Below, piece after piece: positions 2,014 to 49,536 of a stretch of 64,000 bases of DNA. A program made the translations under genes and the position numbers. How positions within the stretch are numbered: the first letter of the stretch is position 1; each line of letters opens with the position of its first letter. Below the pieces are notes generated by a model, which ran no database searches, was not told the origin of the DNA, and saw nothing but the letters and a program-made list of their open reading frames with translations. Source of the DNA: Crocinitomicaceae bacterium (lineage in GTDB: Bacteria; Bacteroidota; Bacteroidia; Flavobacteriales_G; Salibacteraceae); contig PAVO01000055.1 in NCBI GenBank assembly GCA_002713215.1, forward strand, positions 62,001 through 126,000, in the 5' to 3' direction.

Positions 2014-2991
2014 CTAACTCTTTAGCATTTGCTCTATCTGATATTCCAATACTTCTTCCAGGGAGACATTAGCGTATTCCAGTTGTTGAGGCATTAGGCT
2101 TTTCTGAGACATTCCAGGTACAGTGTTTACTTCTATCAAATACAATTCTCCCTTGCACAAAATAAAATCAGCCCTGAAAAACCCCCTGCAGTCAAGTAGT
2201 TTGTAGATTCTTTTGCTGAGTTCCATGGTCTTATTGTACTCAATTTCCGATATTCTCGCCGGAGTTATTTCCTGTGTTCCTGGTGAATCGTACTTGGCTT
2301 CAAAATCAAAAAAGTCATTTTCAAACACAATTTCTGTAACGGCTAACGACCTAACCTCACCACCTATCCGAATTACGCCGCAAGTAATTTCAGTTCCTTC
2401 GACAAAGCTTTCAATTAAAATTCTGTCGGATACACCGAAAGCAAGTTTAATGGCGGGAGCCAGTTCATCGCTTGACTTAACTTTAGTAACACCAATACTT
2501 GAACCACCATCATTCGGTTTAACAAAACATGGAAGTCCTAATTTGCCTATTATTTCTTCCTCATTACAATCTTGCTCCCTTGAAATCAAAACACTCTCCG
2601 CTACGGAAATTCCGTTCTGCCTCAGGTATTGATTGCAAAACCCTTTGTTAAAGGTTAGTGCGCTTATCAACACTTCACAACCGTTGTATTTTATTCCCAG
2701 CAGATCAAAATAGCCTTGAATTTTCCCATCCTCTCCAGGGGTTCCATGAATGATATTCAATACCCCGTCAAATGCAACTGTTTCCGAGTCATTATAGCAA
2801 GTAAAGTCCTGTTTATTAATTTTCCAAGATGCTCCTTTTAAATCTTCAACGGACCAGCCATTAACGCTTAGAATAACTTTAAAAACACGGTACTTTGAAC
2901 CGTTAATGTGGTCAATAATTGTTTGGGCACTTTGCATTGAGATGACATCTTCACCACTAAACCCTCCACATAATACCGCTATATTATTCAT
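2014..2991 (-). CDS. ddl: D-alanine--D-alanine ligase
   Basis: A 325-residue ATP-grasp enzyme joining two D-alanines with ATP for the peptidoglycan pentapeptide, in the cytoplasm. Visible family features: AVLCGGFSGED at the N-terminus (the usual gGxSxE region), HGTPGEDG near residue 85, the ATP-grasp lysine region CFVKPNDGGSSIGVTKV, and the metal/ATP site FRADFILCKGELYLIEVNTVPGMS near residues 272-295. Length is typical of bacterial Ddl. It diverges from the PASTA gene, an arrangement common in Bacteroidota. A TAnnTTTG-type box (TATTTTTG) lies 16 bases upstream of the ATG on the minus strand. Function is very likely. Confidence 0.95.
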   Translation of the reverse strand: MNNIAVLCGGFSGEDVISMQSAQTIIDHINGSKYRVFKVILSVNGWSVEDLKGASWKINKQDFTCYNDSETVAFDGVLNIIHGTPGEDGKIQGYFDLLGIKYNGCEVLISALTFNKGFCNQYLRQNGISVAESVLISREQDCNEEEIIGKLGLPCFVKPNDGGSSIGVTKVKSSDELAPAIKLAFGVSDRILIESFVEGTEITCGVIRIGGEVRSLAVTEIVFENDFFDFEAKYDSPGTQEITPARISEIEYNKTMELSKRIYKLLDCRGFFRADFILCKGELYLIEVNTVPGMSQKSLMPQQLEYANVSLEEVLEYQIEQMLKS

Positions 2992-3006
2992 GAGTAGACC
3001 TTTTTA

Positions 3007-3014
3007 CAAAAATA
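3007..3014 (-). promoter_or_regulatory. -7 box (TATTTTTG) of ddl
   Basis: Read on the minus strand the sequence is TATTTTTG, matching the Bacteroidota -7 consensus TAnnTTTG. It ends 16 bases before the ddl start codon. No clear TTG -33 element is present at the usual distance. Confidence 0.5.
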
Positions 3015-3112
3015 GAATTCACCATTTTCGGGGGAGAATGGCTCAACAAAACTTATTAAGAATAATTACTAACAGATTTTTTTAAAAGAACTATTGCATT
3101 TACTCTGAAAAT

Positions 3113-3120
3113 TATCTTTG
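3113..3120 (+). promoter_or_regulatory. -7 box (TATCTTTG) of the PASTA/T9SS/rluD run
   Basis: TATCTTTG matches TAnnTTTG. A TTG at 3094-3096 sits 16 bases upstream as a possible -33 element. The ATG at 3127 is only six bases downstream of the box, so the transcript should have almost no leader. The box overlaps the TTG at 3118, which argues against that codon as start. Confidence 0.6.
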
Positions 3121-3126
3121 CAGTAT

Positions 3127-3960
3127 ATGTTGAAGTTCATTCGGTTCATATTCACAAAGAAATTCTGGGTCAATATTGCGGTATTCCTTGTCTTGTTTGT
3201 TATTGGAATTTGGGCATTGTTTTCACACCTGGGTAGTCGAACCCTGCATGGTGAGGAAATTAAAGTGCCGAGGCTTATCGGGTTTCATGTTTCCGAAATA
3301 AAAAACTTACTGGAGCAAGATGGATTAAACTATGCGGTAATGGATTCCATTTACGTGGAAAAATCAGCCGGCGGAATGGTGGTTGAACAAAACCCCGACT
3401 CAGGGATGTTAGTAAAAAACGGGCGAAAAATTTATGTCACATTAAGTTCTTACACCGCTCCTAAAATTCCCGTTCCCAACCTCAAATGGGATCAAAAAAG
3501 AAATGTAATTGCTCAACTTTCATCAATGGGCTTTAAAATTGGTAATATCCGATATATACCCTCAGTTTGCGAGGATTGCCTGGAACGCATTGAAATTGAT
3601 AGCGTGGAGCTAAAATCTGGAACACGACTCGATATTGGAACAGAATTGGATTTGGTGCTTGGAGGGGGCTCCTCTGATCAATTTATTCCTGTTCCATACT
3701 TGATTGGCACACCACTTCGAGCATTGGAAAATACAGTAATAAACACAGGGCTGATTTTAGGGTCTGTTGTGCTCGATGAGGAAATGAGTTCGGAAGACTC
3801 TTCTCAAGCCATGGTATATAAGCAAAGCCCAGAGCCTGGAACTGAGGATGTTCACCTGGGAACAGCTATGACTGTATTTGTTTCTACTGATTACAATAAG
3901 CTGCCAAAAAACGAGTTAGATAGTGCATCTCAAACGGAACAGTATGAGCAAGTCGAATAA
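3127..3960 (+). CDS. PASTA-domain inner-membrane protein
   Basis: A 277-residue protein with a short cytoplasmic tail, one transmembrane helix at about residues 14-35, and a periplasmic part made of three PASTA repeats (about 45-113, 115-182 and 184-255; recognisable by the VP.L.G start of repeats 1 and 3 and by QNPDSG/QSPEPG). PASTA domains bind peptidoglycan or its precursors in kinases and penicillin-binding proteins; here no kinase or transpeptidase domain is attached. I chose the ATG at 3127 over the TTG at 3118 because the latter lies in the promoter box. The next gene starts inside its last codons. The position next to ddl suggests a cell-wall-related role, which is inference. Confidence 0.85.
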   Translation: MLKFIRFIFTKKFWVNIAVFLVLFVIGIWALFSHLGSRTLHGEEIKVPRLIGFHVSEIKNLLEQDGLNYAVMDSIYVEKSAGGMVVEQNPDSGMLVKNGRKIYVTLSSYTAPKIPVPNLKWDQKRNVIAQLSSMGFKIGNIRYIPSVCEDCLERIEIDSVELKSGTRLDIGTELDLVLGGGSSDQFIPVPYLIGTPLRALENTVINTGLILGSVVLDEEMSSEDSSQAMVYKQSPEPGTEDVHLGTAMTVFVSTDYNKLPKNELDSASQTEQYEQVE

Positions 3961-43638: not shown

Positions 43639-45846
43639 GTGAATTGGGCAGAGGAAGAATACGGTGTTGAGCAACTTCGAAAAGAAAAACGTGATATAAT
43701 TCGCGCTTACCGGAGTTTGATGAAACCCGGTAAGACCCGATTAAAAACCAAGGACAAAGAACTTATTAGAAAGGCTTTTGATGTTGCTCTTGAAGCACAT
43801 AGGGGTATGCGCAGAAAATCAGGAGAACCCTATATTTTCCATCCCCTCGAAGTAGCCAAAATTGCTAAAGAGGACATTGGCGTAGGGCCAACAGGCATTG
43901 TATGTGCTTTACTTCATGACGTCGTTGAAGATACAGACATCACCCTTCTCGATATTGAACAGCTTTTTGGAAAAAAGGTGGCCAAAGTCATTGATGGGCT
44001 GACAAAAATCTCCGAGTTGTTCCATCAAAACTCTAACCTCCAGGCCGAGAATTTTAAGAAGCTATTGCTTACCCTCTCGCAAGATGTACGAGTCATTTTG
44101 ATCAAGCTTGCCGATCGCCTGCACAACATGAGAACACTGGGCAGTATGCCCGGGGAAAAAGCGAGAAAAATAGCTTCGGAAACTTTGTACTTGTATGCTC
44201 CGGTGGCCCATCGCTTGGGTATTTACAACATCAAATCAGAAATGGAAGATTTGAGTTTGAAATACCTGGAGCCTGAAGTATATGGTGAGATACGTGATAA
44301 ACTTCAAAAATCGAAGGCTGTAAGAACCCGTTTTTTAAATCGATTCTCGCTGCCCTTGAAACGGGAACTAAAAAAAGCCAAACTCAGCTTTGACATTAGC
44401 GGGAGAACAAAGTCCATTTTTTCTATTTACGAGAAGATGAGGCGTCAAAACATTCCCTTCGAGGAAGTTTATGATATTCTGGCCGTTCGAATTGTATTAA
44501 ATGCGAATCGTGAAAACGAAAAGGCGGATTGCTGGAAAGCCTATTCAACTGTAACCGACTTTTATAAGCCTAATCCGGAACGACTTCGGGATTGGATTAC
44601 CAGCCCAAAAGCCAATGGATATGAAAGTTTGCACATAACCGTAATGAGCCCTACTGGAAAATGGGTGGAGGTGCAAATTCGTAGTAAACGTATGGATGAA
44701 ATTGCGGAAAACGGCTACGCAGCCCACTGGAAGTACAAAAGTGAAGGTGAGGACCATGCCGTTGACCAGTGGATTGAAAGAATTCGGGAAACACTTGAAA
44801 ATAGTGACACGCATTCTGAAGATTTTATTGATGAATTTCGCTTGAGTCTGTATGAAAAAGAAATCATGATTTTCTCCCCTAAGGGAGACATGATATCACT
44901 TCCTTCTCAATCAACTCCGGTAGATTTTGCCTATGAAATTCACTCCCAATTAGGAGATCAAACCATTGGTGCAAAAGTCAATGGAAAGTTGGTACCACTG
45001 AGTTACCACTTGCAAACAGGTGATCAGATTGAGATTATAAAATCGTCAAAAGGAAAACCAAGTGAAGACTGGCTCAAGTTTGTAAAAACGGCCAAGGCCA
45101 AATCGAAAATTAAAAGTCACTTAAAAACAGAAAAGAAAAAATTTGCGGGATTGGGCAGAACCATTTTGCGCCGAAAAATGCGCGAATTGGGAATAAAATT
45201 TGAACAGGATAATTATTATCGAATCGCCTACCTGTTTAATCTTCCAACACTTGATGACCTCTTCTATCAGGTAAAAAACGAGGGACTCGATTTAAATCAA
45301 CTCAACAAGCTTAAAATTGAAAAAGGGCTTATTAAAAACAATTTCAGAAAAACCAAAAATGCCATTATTACGGAGGTTGGTGGGCGAGCACAAATTGCCT
45401 CAAAGTCAGAAAACATTGAAGGTGTGGAATACAATTTGGCCAATTGTTGCAATCCAATTCCCGGTGACAAGGTATTTGGCTTCATGAACCGAAATAATTT
45501 ATTCGACATTCATCGTTCCAATTGCCCAAAAGCACTTGAACTCAGAAGTCATAAACACTACCGGGTAATTGAAGCCAAATGGACAAGCGAACATTCACTG
45601 GCGTTTCTTGTAGGTGTTAAACTCAGTGGAATTGACCAGTTGGGAATGGTGAATGAACTAACCAATATTATATCTCAGGATATGGACATAAACATGCGAG
45701 AAGTCCATTTTGAATCTGTTGATGGGGTATTTCAAGGAGAAATTAGAGTCTATGTTACCAACAGGCAACATTTAAATGACCTCATGAGGGTGTTGAATAA
45801 GGTAAAAGGAGTGGAAAAAGTGGAACGAATCGATGACACTAAATGA
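43639..45846 (+). CDS. relA: Bifunctional (p)ppGpp synthetase/hydrolase
   Basis: A 735-residue Rel/Spo homologue. In order: HD hydrolase domain (about 30-200) with an intact HDxxED motif at H93/D94/E98/D99 (LLHDVVEDTD); synthetase domain (about 240-370) with SGRTKSIFSIYEKM and YDILAVRIV; TGS domain (about 405-470, IMIFSPKGDMISLPSQST); a helical region with NLANCCNPIPGD; and a C-terminal ACT domain. The intact hydrolase site makes it bifunctional, controlling the stringent response in the cytoplasm. The start is GTG, just after a -7 box. Probably the only long RSH enzyme, but that cannot be checked within this window. Confidence 0.95.
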   Translation: MNWAEEEYGVEQLRKEKRDIIRAYRSLMKPGKTRLKTKDKELIRKAFDVALEAHRGMRRKSGEPYIFHPLEVAKIAKEDIGVGPTGIVCALLHDVVEDTDITLLDIEQLFGKKVAKVIDGLTKISELFHQNSNLQAENFKKLLLTLSQDVRVILIKLADRLHNMRTLGSMPGEKARKIASETLYLYAPVAHRLGIYNIKSEMEDLSLKYLEPEVYGEIRDKLQKSKAVRTRFLNRFSLPLKRELKKAKLSFDISGRTKSIFSIYEKMRRQNIPFEEVYDILAVRIVLNANRENEKADCWKAYSTVTDFYKPNPERLRDWITSPKANGYESLHITVMSPTGKWVEVQIRSKRMDEIAENGYAAHWKYKSEGEDHAVDQWIERIRETLENSDTHSEDFIDEFRLSLYEKEIMIFSPKGDMISLPSQSTPVDFAYEIHSQLGDQTIGAKVNGKLVPLSYHLQTGDQIEIIKSSKGKPSEDWLKFVKTAKAKSKIKSHLKTEKKKFAGLGRTILRRKMRELGIKFEQDNYYRIAYLFNLPTLDDLFYQVKNEGLDLNQLNKLKIEKGLIKNNFRKTKNAIITEVGGRAQIASKSENIEGVEYNLANCCNPIPGDKVFGFMNRNNLFDIHRSNCPKALELRSHKHYRVIEAKWTSEHSLAFLVGVKLSGIDQLGMVNELTNIISQDMDINMREVHFESVDGVFQGEIRVYVTNRQHLNDLMRVLNKVKGVEKVERIDDTK

Positions 45847-45928: not shown

Positions 45929-46378
45929 ATGACACAAGTACAGACTGCAGAAGAAGTCCGTTCAATTTTTGCAGCATTTCTTAAGCAAAATGGCCACCGA
46001 AAAACTCCGGAACGATTTGCCATATTGGAAGAAATTTATTCGCTTGAAGAACATTTCGATGTAGAGGCACTGTATTTCTTAATGAAGGAAAAAAAATACA
46101 GGGTTAGTCGAGCTACCCTGTACAATACCATTGATTTATTAATGGCTTGTAACCTGATACGAAAACATCAGTTTGGACAAAAAATCAGCCAATATGAAAA
46201 ATCTCATGGTTATAAGCAACACGACCATATAATCTGCACCAACTGCAACAAAGTCATTGAATTTTGTGACCCAAGGGTTCAGCAAATTAAATCTACGCTG
46301 GAAAGCCAATTGGGGGTGAAGGTATTTCACCATTCACTAAATTTTTATGGAACCTGCGATAAATGTAACTCAAAGTAA
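45929..46378 (+). CDS. Fur-family transcriptional regulator
   Basis: A 149-residue metal-responsive repressor. The N-terminal winged helix (about 15-85) has [17 protein letters not shown] and [21 protein letters not shown], the Fur recognition helix. The dimerisation domain has the regulatory metal region [19 protein letters not shown] and the structural zinc pair CDKCNSK near the C-terminus, with the first pair CTNC. Whether it senses iron, zinc, manganese or peroxide cannot be decided. It sits 82 bases after relA and 22 bases before purA, so it is probably in the purA transcript. A weak box (TACTTTTA) is upstream. Confidence 0.9.
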
Positions 46379-46400: not shown

Positions 46401-47669
46401 ATGAAGATAGATGTACTACTAGGACTGCAATGGGGTGATGAGGGAAAAGGAAAAATAGTTGACGTCCTAACACCAAAATATAACGTAATTGCCCGATTTC
46501 AAGGTGGTCCAAACGCTGGACACACCCTGGAGTTTGAAGGAATAAAACACGTACTTCACACCATTCCTTCGGGAATCTTTCATAGCGATTCCGAAAATGT
46601 TATTGGGAACGGGGTGGTTATTGACCCGGTAATAATGGAAGCAGAATTAAAAGCGTTGGAGCCATTCAATGTTGACATTAACAAAGTACTCTTTGTTTCA
46701 AGAAAAGCTCAGCTTATTTTACCGACTCATAAATTACTGGATGCTGCTTCCGAAGCTGCTAAAGGAAAAGACAAAATTGGTTCTACGCTTAAGGGAATTG
46801 GCCCCACTTATATGGATAAAACGGGCCGTAATGGCCTTAGGGTTGGCGATATCGAATCGGATCAGTTCATGGCCAAATACAACAAGTTAAAAGACAAACA
46901 CATCCAATTACTAGGCAACTTTAAATTTGATTATTCGGAATTGGATGCACTTGAAACAGCTTGGATGAAGTCTATTGAATTGCTCCGTGGACTTAATTTA
47001 ATTGATAGCGAACACTTTGTAAATAATCGTTTAAAGTCTAATAGTTCCATACTGGCAGAAGGTGCCCAGGGTTCGCTTTTGGATGTAGATTTTGGCTCTT
47101 ACCCTTTTGTAACTTCTTCCAACACGGTTTGTGCAGGAGCATGTACAGGTTTAGGGGTTGCTCCCAATAGAATTGGTGATGTTTACGGAATTTTTAAAGC
47201 GTATTGCACCCGAGTAGGTTCCGGGCCGTTTCCAACTGAATTACATGATTCTGTTGGTGAAGAAATTAGGAAGGCAGGTCATGAATTTGGTGCTACGACC
47301 GGTCGCCCAAGAAGATGCGGCTGGATTGACCTTCCAGCATTGAAATATGCCATAATGCTTAATGGCGTTACTCAATTAATTATGACTAAGGCAGATGTTC
47401 TTAGTGGTTTCTCAGAAATTAACGTGTGTACCCATTACATGCACAAGAACGAGAAAATCGATTACATGCCCTATGATATTATAAGCGAAGAAGTTACTCC
47501 CGTATATCATTCCGTACCGGGTTGGGAAGAGGACTTAACCGGTATGCGTTCAATCGACGAGTTACCTAAAAGTTTAATGGATTATGTAGAATACCTTGAG
47601 GGAGAACTTGAAGTGCCTATTTCAATCGTTTCGGTTGGACCCGACAGAACTCAAACTTTGATGCGATAA
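46401..47669 (+). CDS. purA: Adenylosuccinate synthetase
   Basis: A 422-residue GTP-dependent enzyme joining IMP and aspartate, the first committed step to AMP. The P-loop QWGDEGKGK lies at residues 9-17 and its Asp is catalytic; GGPNAGHT, GIGPTYMDKTGRNGLR, EGAQGSLLDVDFGSYPFVTSS and GATTGRPRRCGW complete the family signature. The ATG at 46401 gives the standard start; a longer frame from 46347 would overlap the Fur gene. A terminator-like hairpin lies about 45 bases after the stop. Cytoplasmic. Confidence 0.96.
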   Translation: MKIDVLLGLQWGDEGKGKIVDVLTPKYNVIARFQGGPNAGHTLEFEGIKHVLHTIPSGIFHSDSENVIGNGVVIDPVIMEAELKALEPFNVDINKVLFVSRKAQLILPTHKLLDAASEAAKGKDKIGSTLKGIGPTYMDKTGRNGLRVGDIESDQFMAKYNKLKDKHIQLLGNFKFDYSELDALETAWMKSIELLRGLNLIDSEHFVNNRLKSNSSILAEGAQGSLLDVDFGSYPFVTSSNTVCAGACTGLGVAPNRIGDVYGIFKAYCTRVGSGPFPTELHDSVGEEIRKAGHEFGATTGRPRRCGWIDLPALKYAIMLNGVTQLIMTKADVLSGFSEINVCTHYMHKNEKIDYMPYDIISEEVTPVYHSVPGWEEDLTGMRSIDELPKSLMDYVEYLEGELEVPISIVSVGPDRTQTLMR

Positions 47670-47712
47670 TTTGCCTTTTTTCGGTAAAAATATTGGCCCA
47701 GTTAATTGGAAA

Positions 47713-49272
47713 TTGCCTGCTCTTTGCAGGCTTTTTTCGTTCGTAGTTTTATTAGCGATAGTATTTGATTCTCAAGCTCAGAAAAGGGCTAGAAAGATTG
47801 AAATTCTTGGAGCCAATGATCTTATCTACGATGACTCAGAAGGTGTACGGGCCAAAAAGCTAATTGGCGATGTAAAAATCAAACATGGAAAAACATACAT
47901 GGATTGCGACTCTGCCTATGTCTATTCCAAAACAAACACCATGAAGGCTTATGGAAATGTGCACATTTATGACAATGATGGCTTAGAACTTTTTGGTGAC
48001 TCGCTCAAGTATTTTGGAGACACAAAACTGGCACAGGTAAGAGGCAATGAGGTTAAGTTGATTCAGGACGACATGACTCTGGTAACACAATTTCTGGACT
48101 TCGACCGAAACAACGAAGTTGGATATTATTGGAACGGTGGCAACATTTTGATGAATAATAATAAGGACAGCCTGTTCAGTTACAAGGGGTATTATTTTAC
48201 TCAAAGTTCCACCATGCAGTTTAAAGATTCTGTTCGATTACGTACTCCTGATTACATTGTTAAAAGTGATACCCTACACTACAATAGTAGTTCACAGAAA
48301 AGTCATTTTTTCGGGCCAACATTTATAGAAAGCGAAGGTGATTTAATCTACACCGAAAAGGGTTGGTCGGACAACAAGAATAAAGTTTCTGTTTTCACAA
48401 AAAATGCGTACATAATCAGTAAAGAACAGGAGCTGTACGGAGACAGTATCTACTACAACCAAAAAGATGGAATTGGAGAAGTATTCAACAATGTTACTTT
48501 ACTCGATACTTCCAATAATTTTATGGTCCAGGGAGAATACGTTTATCTCAATCAAATTGACAGCACTTCTCTAGTATTGGGAGAGCCCATGCTTACTCAA
48601 TTCTTCGAAAAAGACAGTCTCTATCTGCATGCCGACACCTTGTATTCTAATTATGATTCTACCCGTAAATATAGACTGATTCATGCCTACCCTAAAGCTC
48701 AGTTTTACAAATCGGATATGCAGGGAAAAAGTGATAGCCTTGTTTTTTCAGATGTGGATTCAAGCATTACCATGTATCACGATCCTATCATCTGGTCGGA
48801 GGCCAATCAAATTACCGCCAGGTTGATTACGATTTACAAAAAGGGAGAAAACATTGACCGAATGACCATGGATTACCGATCATTCATTACTTCCCTGGAA
48901 GATTCAACTTCTAAATACAGAAAATATAATCAGATTAAAGGTGATAGCATGATTGGCCATTTCAAGGAAAATCGGTTAAACTCAGTCGATGTGAATCACA
49001 ATGGCGTTTCTATCTATTTTGCTAAAGAAGATTCTGGAGGATACATTGGCATGAATAAATCCAAAAGTGAGTACATGACCATATACCTCGACAGTAATTC
49101 CGTAAAAGAAATTATGTTTCGGCAATCGCCAGAAGCCACACTCTACCCCATTAAGGACGTAACACCAAGAATGCAATACCTGAAACGGTTTAAATGGAGG
49201 GATTCTGAAAGACCAAAAAAGAGGGAAGATATTTTTAATTGGAAGGAAGAGGAGGAAATAGAAGGAGAATAA
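47713..49272 (+). CDS. OstA-like/LptA-type periplasmic protein
   Basis: A 519-residue exported protein. From the TTG at 47713 the N-terminus is a compact signal peptide (PALCRLFSFVVLLAIVFDS then QAQ). The mature part is made of LptA/OstA-N beta-jelly-roll repeats in which short strands with SDxLxYN, KTYMDCDSAYVYS, GNVHIYDNDGLELFGDSL and similar phrases recur to about residue 330. LptA-fold proteins shuttle lipopolysaccharide across the periplasm. The very acidic, lysine-rich C-terminus (KREDIFNWKEEEEIEGE) is unusual for that family. No ATG or GTG exists before the signal peptide, only TTG at 47671 or 47713. It lies directly after purA. Confidence 0.78.
   Translation: MPALCRLFSFVVLLAIVFDSQAQKRARKIEILGANDLIYDDSEGVRAKKLIGDVKIKHGKTYMDCDSAYVYSKTNTMKAYGNVHIYDNDGLELFGDSLKYFGDTKLAQVRGNEVKLIQDDMTLVTQFLDFDRNNEVGYYWNGGNILMNNNKDSLFSYKGYYFTQSSTMQFKDSVRLRTPDYIVKSDTLHYNSSSQKSHFFGPTFIESEGDLIYTEKGWSDNKNKVSVFTKNAYIISKEQELYGDSIYYNQKDGIGEVFNNVTLLDTSNNFMVQGEYVYLNQIDSTSLVLGEPMLTQFFEKDSLYLHADTLYSNYDSTRKYRLIHAYPKAQFYKSDMQGKSDSLVFSDVDSSITMYHDPIIWSEANQITARLITIYKKGENIDRMTMDYRSFITSLEDSTSKYRKYNQIKGDSMIGHFKENRLNSVDVNHNGVSIYFAKEDSGGYIGMNKSKSEYMTIYLDSNSVKEIMFRQSPEATLYPIKDVTPRMQYLKRFKWRDSERPKKREDIFNWKEEEEIEGE
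47715..47737 (+). terminator. Rho-independent terminator-like hairpin between purA and the OstA-like gene
   Basis: GCCTGC (47715-47720), loop TCTTT and GCAGGC (47726-47731) form a perfect six-pair GC-rich stem followed by six T. It would end the purA transcript. It also overlaps the first codons of the OstA-like gene, which therefore needs read-through or its own promoter, or the hairpin acts as an attenuator. Confidence 0.65.
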
Positions 49273-49353
49273 CTACCTCCTCCTCAATGTCCCAACCAAT
49301 TTACATCAGGGTATTACTCAACTAAACCACTTTTTTTTTCGAGGGTTGGGGAT

Positions 49354-49367
49354 TTGATTTAAATCAA
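49354..49367. promoter_or_regulatory. Perfect FNR/CRP-type palindrome TTGATTTAAATCAA
   Basis: The 14-base sequence equals the FNR consensus TTGAT-N4-ATCAA with a symmetric centre. It stands 170 bases before the desaturase -7 box, in the 283-base gap after the OstA-like gene. Crp/Fnr regulators exist in Bacteroidota, but binding here is inferred from sequence only. Confidence 0.4.
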
Positions 49368-49453
49368 CCTAAGAGAACTTACAAATTCATTGTTTTGGCC
49401 TATAAAAAACAGATTCTAATCCATGAATGTAAAGCGTTTCGTTTCAAACCTAT

Positions 49454-49499
49454 TTTAATAGTAATCCATTTTAATCTTTAATAGTAATCCATTTTAATC
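49454..49499 (+). repeat. Tandem duplication of a 23-base unit
   Basis: Positions 49454-49476 and 49477-49499 are identical over 23 bases (TTTAATAGTAATCC... then ATTTTAATC). The repeat lies just upstream of the desaturase promoter. The rest of the gap contains a T-run (49331-49339), the palindrome at 49354 and no gene. Confidence 0.85.
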
Positions 49500-49536
49500 G
49501 ACTGATATATGTTCTGATTTCTGCTCATTATTGAAC

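Follow-up and report, generated by a model that had tools for sequence, protein, structure and literature searches.

A terminator-like hairpin behind purA lies within the signal-peptide codons of an ostA-like gene in Bacteroidota

In a Crocinitomicaceae genome (5.03 Mb, 56 contigs), a terminator-like hairpin and its T tract lie wholly inside the open frame of an ostA-like gene directly 3' of purA. Judged from sequence comparison, the hairpin is probably the intrinsic terminator of purA, with the ostA frame running back through it and ostA expressed by read-through. What the genomes compared do show is the layout itself: it recurs with stems of different sequence, is tied to purA and is conserved more than the protein demands. 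Within the window (the whole stretch of DNA analysed, 64,000 nucleotides), the genes follow one another on the + strand in the order spoT/relA (43639-45846), fur (45929-46378), purA (46401-47669) and the OstA_2 gene (47671-49272). The features of the locus are as follows.

46401-47669, + strand: purA, adenylosuccinate synthase (PF00709, E = 7.2e-166; NF002223 above cut-off)
47667-47669, + strand: purA stop codon, TAA
47671-49272, + strand: ostA-like gene (OstA_2, LptA-like repeats), longest form from TTG 47671 (PF13100, E = 1.4e-41; PF03968, E = 3.4e-9)
47671-47673, + strand: candidate ostA start, TTG, one base past the purA stop; the presumed start
47713-47715, + strand: alternative start, TTG, whose G is the first stem base
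47715-47731, + strand: terminator-like stem-loop GCCTGC-TCTTT-GCAGGC (6-bp stem), from sequence, consensus scan, folding and counterparts in relatives
47732-47737, + strand: T tract of six T within Leu-Phe-Ser codons, where the hydrophobic core starts

The ostA product scored 142.2 bits against the OstA_2 profile PF13100, above the curated cut-off of 21.2, and 44.7 against the LptA equivalog TIGR03002, below the cut-off of 71.7. It shares 57-62% identity with its nearest relatives, and the named OstA relatives come mostly from MAGs under Flavobacteriales, Crocinitomicaceae, Cryomorphaceae or Bacteroidetes; among viral contigs there were 27 pattern matches, none of them a relative. The signal peptide, approximately residues 1-37, was assigned by eye. 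On the 3' side of ostA, AATAGTAATCCATTTTAATC occurs twice with 3 bases between the copies (49457-49499).

The first-pass annotation had described a perfect GCCTGC/GCAGGC stem with six T at the first codons of the signal peptide, and we confirmed both elements at the positions listed. The stem-loop begins 46 nt past the purA stop codon, and its GC-rich stem carries a U tract immediately 3' on the sense strand, as an intrinsic terminator does. Folded alone, positions 47700-47740 reached -16.7 kcal/mol (z = -5.05), with none of 200 shuffles equally good. A consensus scan flagged the stem and T tract as terminator-like; because 8 kb held 4 such sites versus 7.4 in shuffles, that scan is by itself no proof. 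Rfam returned no match across 47300-48000 at E <= 5.

To place the locus within its own genome, we called 332 ORFs in 450,620 bases (the window plus 20 stretches). Thirty-six of them are followed by a terminator-like site of -8 kcal/mol or lower, and in five of these 36 the site falls inside the longest form of the ORF that follows; in one of the five, an ATG comes after the hairpin. A hairpin that overlaps the following gene is thus not unique in this genome, and ostA is the clearest case: it alone of the five combines a perfect stem running into six T with the lack of a nearby ATG. Elsewhere in the genome, on the minus strand of contig C10, an ORF at 2472-3723 (L195; reverse-strand coordinates) begins MKKEVVDHLFRHQYGK and overlaps the preceding ORF; a hairpin of -18.8 kcal/mol lies 18-54 nt after its ATG and is followed by TCTATTTTA, a poorer T tract.

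OstA was present in 112 of 120 relative genomes and in 39 of 42 genomes of the order, two sets that overlap. Each oriented locus was scanned from -14 to +110 nt around the purA stop for a hairpin ending at a T-rich stretch. Pairs were called 'nested' where a hairpin of -8 kcal/mol or lower lay inside the ostA frame with a start codon upstream, and 'before' where the ostA start lay downstream. The loci compared leave out 13 of the 112 matched genomes, those with the weakest matches, as well as L088 and L099 (no OstA match) and L010 (OstA far from purA); further loci were drawn from 80 of 578 confirmed loci, minus those judged copies of loci in the set. The resulting 84 purA-ostA pairs, among which L033 and L141 are identical and L006 and L008 are 96% identical around the purA stop, comprised 15 nested, 6 'before' and 63 without a hairpin. 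Besides the window (L002), the nested set contains L003, L004, L006, L007, L008, L009, L013, L015, L017, L018, L022, L074, L110 and L113; L004, L006, L007 and L008 represent four species of one genus.

The hairpins in these relatives (15 nested and 6 'before' of 84) retain the structure despite altered sequence, as would be expected of a terminator. Nested stems include AAAGCCCC/GGGGCTTT, AAAAGCCTCC/GGAGGCTTTT, GGAGCTT/AAGCTCC, TAGGCAGGCTC/GAGCCTGCCTA, AAACAGACC/GGTCTGTTT and others. Counted from the outermost G-C, stem pair 4 is T-A in the window, L004, L006, L007 and L008 and C-G in L003, while pair 5 is G-C in the window and C-G in L003, L004, L006 and L008; at both pairs, both sides are altered between close relatives. 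Measured from the purA stop, nested hairpins begin at 19-54 nt and those of the six 'before' pairs at 18-22 nt, the latter spanning +18 to +59. The other 63 of 84 pairs, some from the same family, carry no such hairpin, so it is dispensable over evolution.

A T run of at least five directly adjoins the stem in 10 of the 15 nested hairpins; L074 also has at least five T, five bases further on, and the remaining runs are shorter (four in L113, three in L022, two in L009 and L015). The nearest PurA relative, L005 (G011), has a hairpin without a T tract, which, like the shorter runs, weighs against the terminator reading. L009 (G110) carries an 11-pair hairpin, GGGGTGAGTAT/ATACTCACCCT, in the ostA signal peptide 37-62 nt past the purA stop (-16.4, no T run next to the stem, equalled in 0 of 1000 synonymous shuffles), which may not be a terminator. 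Such a strong hairpin without a T run would suit a post-transcriptional role, in which the structure protects the processed 3' end of purA mRNA or hides the ostA start without terminating. So would a second predicted hairpin in the window, at 47664-47695 by the purA stop, which has TTG 47671 in its stem and could limit initiation there. The prevalence of T runs directly at the stem speaks against this role, as do the six 'before' pairs, which carry the same kind of element as a plain intergenic terminator, and we regard it as improbable.

Signal peptides are rich in Lys (AAA) and in Leu and Phe (CTT, TTT), and terminator look-alikes could arise from coding alone; indeed, 9 of the 332 ORFs in 450 kb of the own genome have a hairpin of -8 kcal/mol or lower at the 5' end. 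We therefore redrew ostA codons synonymously, using the codon usage of each gene itself. In a single-locus test of 17 loci, picked since a hairpin had already been seen there (1000 draws each), no draw was as good for L004, L006, L007, L008, L009, L017 and L022, two were for L013 and L113, three for L003 and L110, and seven for L018, so that 12 of the 17 had 0-7 draws as good. L015 had 23 and the window 17; the window's count favours coding chance to some degree, as the excess at the own locus is modest, and the weight comes from the relatives. L014 (113), L005 (136) and L032 (156) reached higher numbers still, and these five results count against the terminator reading.

The test across all loci is the unbiased one (300 draws each; 83 loci with purA upstream and 73 without, after removal of further copies). 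With purA upstream, 14 of 83 loci had an in-frame hairpin at -8 kcal/mol versus 1.58 expected (largest replicate set 7), 10 had one at -10 (0.42 expected) and 9 at -12 (0.11 expected, largest replicate set 1), an excess over synonymous shuffles of about nine-fold at -8 and eighty-fold at -12. The -8 cut-off was set after first looks at hairpins, and the excess persists at -10 and -12; L017 is uncounted here, as its scanned stretch begins inside its hairpin. Where no purA was found upstream, 1 of 73 loci had an in-frame hairpin versus 1.42 expected, a class that includes contigs cut near the gene, purA having been sought with the window's PurA as sole query; the sole case, L026, is a repeat-like CCTCTCTCC...GGGAGAGAGG. 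An excess with purA and none without it indicate that the hairpin is kept at the RNA level and goes with purA. For the group, then, chance is largely refuted, and we consider it a very improbable explanation: on these comparisons the hairpin appears not to be a mere accident of coding, having been kept for the RNA and tied to purA. The same contrast favours a purA terminator into which the following gene has extended, one of the two layouts that the first-pass annotation had proposed.

On a PurA tree of 81 of the 84 pairs, built by a quick method with 29 of 77 inner branches open, the nested label needs 9 changes, 4 of them forced by starred branches, versus an average of 13.2 for shuffled labels. 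The need for nine changes is a further point against the terminator reading. Nested pairs adjoin 'before' pairs in two places, with L022 by L023, L039 and L040 (fork support 87) and L110 together with L144 and L161 within one starred branch, and the occurrence of both layouts as neighbours again suits growth of a gene into a terminator. From the tree, it seems that either the hairpin comes and goes repeatedly or the ostA start shifts across it repeatedly.

As the first-pass annotation had stated, no ATG or GTG is available: the only in-frame ATG, GTG or TTG codons 5' of the hairpin in the window are TTG 47671 and TTG 47713, and the first in-frame ATG lies 228 nt 3' of TTG 47671. A start at TTG 47671 would make the stem-loop codons 15-21 and place it 44 nt from the start, versus 15-45 nt for the first ATG in the 9 of 15 nested pairs that have an in-frame ATG 5' of the hairpin. 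Those nine pairs make the upstream start independent of the window's TTG codons. We infer that ostA does not start 3' of the hairpin, a candidate rejected because, in the window, none of the codons ATG, GTG and TTG occurs in frame after the T tract until the mature protein is reached; in L003, L004, L006, L007, L008 and L013, a downstream TTG or ATG would leave a short remainder before the mature protein, without a charged n-region. Weak starts were considered as a hallmark of nested pairs and found unsupported: an ATG is absent in 6 of 15 nested and 11 of 63 hairpin-free pairs (Fisher p = 0.08), and also in 4 of 6 'before' pairs. In the own genome, 26 of the 332 ORFs, taken at full length, lack any ATG within 50 codons of their first start; initiation at TTG or GTG may thus not be rare there, although some of these ORFs may be miscalled.

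TAnnTTTG is the Bacteroidota -7 promoter element. In the 64-kb window it occurs 35 times on both strands versus 77 on average in dinucleotide shuffles, a strong avoidance that fits a motif kept for promoters. No exact match lies on the + strand across 46930-49536 (the minus strand has one at 49445), and on that ground an own ostA promoter of the Bacteroidota type was rejected. A sigma-70-like match at 47641-47670 was discounted, being one of 24 found versus 20.9 expected. When the stretch from 250 nt ahead of the purA stop up to the mature protein was searched, TAnnTTTG occurred in 1 of 15 nested pairs, in 1 of 6 'before' pairs and in 3 of 63 pairs with no hairpin. Its absence near ostA is not peculiar to nested pairs, and given its rarity in all classes, co-transcription of ostA with purA seems to be the general rule. 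One 'before' pair, L140, has a TAACTTTG box about 97 nt past the purA stop, between terminator and ostA, and L144 and L161 have near matches to that box.

Under the terminator reading, the hairpin would be the intrinsic terminator of the purA transcription unit, and the ostA frame would extend back to a TTG at, or close to, the stop codon of purA, with stem and T tract doubling as part of the signal-peptide code. The majority of polymerases coming off purA would halt around 47737, and those reading through would make ostA mRNA, yielding the envelope protein well below PurA. Since the ostA start and the terminator lie on the same mRNA, ostA output should follow read-through. We infer all three of the parts on which this scheme turns: that the hairpin terminates, that ostA lacks its own promoter and that read-through sets the ostA level. 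Terminated transcripts with a ribosome already on ostA would become non-stop messages, a cost that PMC4824070 discusses for its own construct.

The ribosome could also act on the hairpin itself. If a ribosome starting or restarting at TTG 47671 met the hairpin and blocked termination, ostA transcription would track translation from its own start, a ribosome-gated attenuator that we think possible but unlikely; an attenuator dependent on ribosome position was the second layout of the first-pass annotation. Starts at or overlapping the purA stop do recur (GTG at -7 in L003, L017 and L005, TTG at -7 in L022, TTG at -10 as the sole start option in L004 and L007, ATG at 0 in L013), and in E. coli, according to PMC4824070, a ribosome stopping 5 bp before a terminator lowered its efficiency from about 90% to below 10%; with just 5 bp between stop codon and terminator, termination was almost abolished. 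The same paper finds, however, that the ribosome largely spares a terminator situated within 100 bp of the beginning of a coding region: where tR2 lay 30 bp past an AUG, with another gene upstream, translation cost only about 10% of its efficiency. Measured against this, the element, at +46 from the purA stop, would be expected to terminate efficiently. Nor, when 47640-47760 is folded, does the minimum-energy or the centroid structure contain a pairing that competes for the stem arms, leaving no antiterminator in either, and nested pairs are not clearly poorer in ATG by the counts given above. A bolder form, to which we give a rather small chance, is a leaderless ribosome-gated attenuator whose signal-peptide codons are leader and terminator at once, such that reinitiation after purA decides transcription of the OstA-like gene and couples outer-membrane assembly to purine synthesis. 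On this form, the signal-peptide code (Lys AAA, Leu/Phe CTT/TTT) would ease such double use, and the arrangement may have had several origins.

In genome annotation, terminators are usually placed between genes and taken as the points at which to divide operons. The element described here is natural and terminator-like, and several lineages keep it, in changing sequence, within the coding part of the gene that follows. A survey that drops terminators lying in ORFs or close to the upstream gene would overlook cases of this kind; the attenuator survey PMC2965389 discarded terminators nearer the upstream gene. The element also offers a small, testable system in Bacteroidota for asking how polymerase read-through and the entry of ribosomes govern the amount of a probable envelope-biogenesis protein. 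Among the papers listed in searches of the open PMC library, which does not extend to subscription papers, none was seen to describe a terminator conserved within the signal-peptide codons of the gene behind it; this silence is weak evidence of novelty.

The arrangement is uncommon, its parts are known, and its hosts belong to a little-known group of Bacteroidota. Like the intrinsic (Rho-independent) terminator at the end of an operon, the purA element has a GC stem, a short loop and a T tract, but the ordinary operon-end terminator sits between genes, whereas this one is wholly inside the next gene's coding sequence. It shares with 5' attenuators and premature terminators, as surveyed in PMC2965389, a terminator that the full downstream mRNA must pass. 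Attenuators of that survey are defined as lying between promoter and first start codon, whereas at ostA the terminator comes after the start codon; neither a leader nor a ligand site nor an alternative fold was found there. A further counterpart is tR2 of PMC4824070, which was engineered in E. coli and kept most of its efficiency, whereas the ostA element is natural, recurs in Bacteroidota and is read in frame as part of a long gene.
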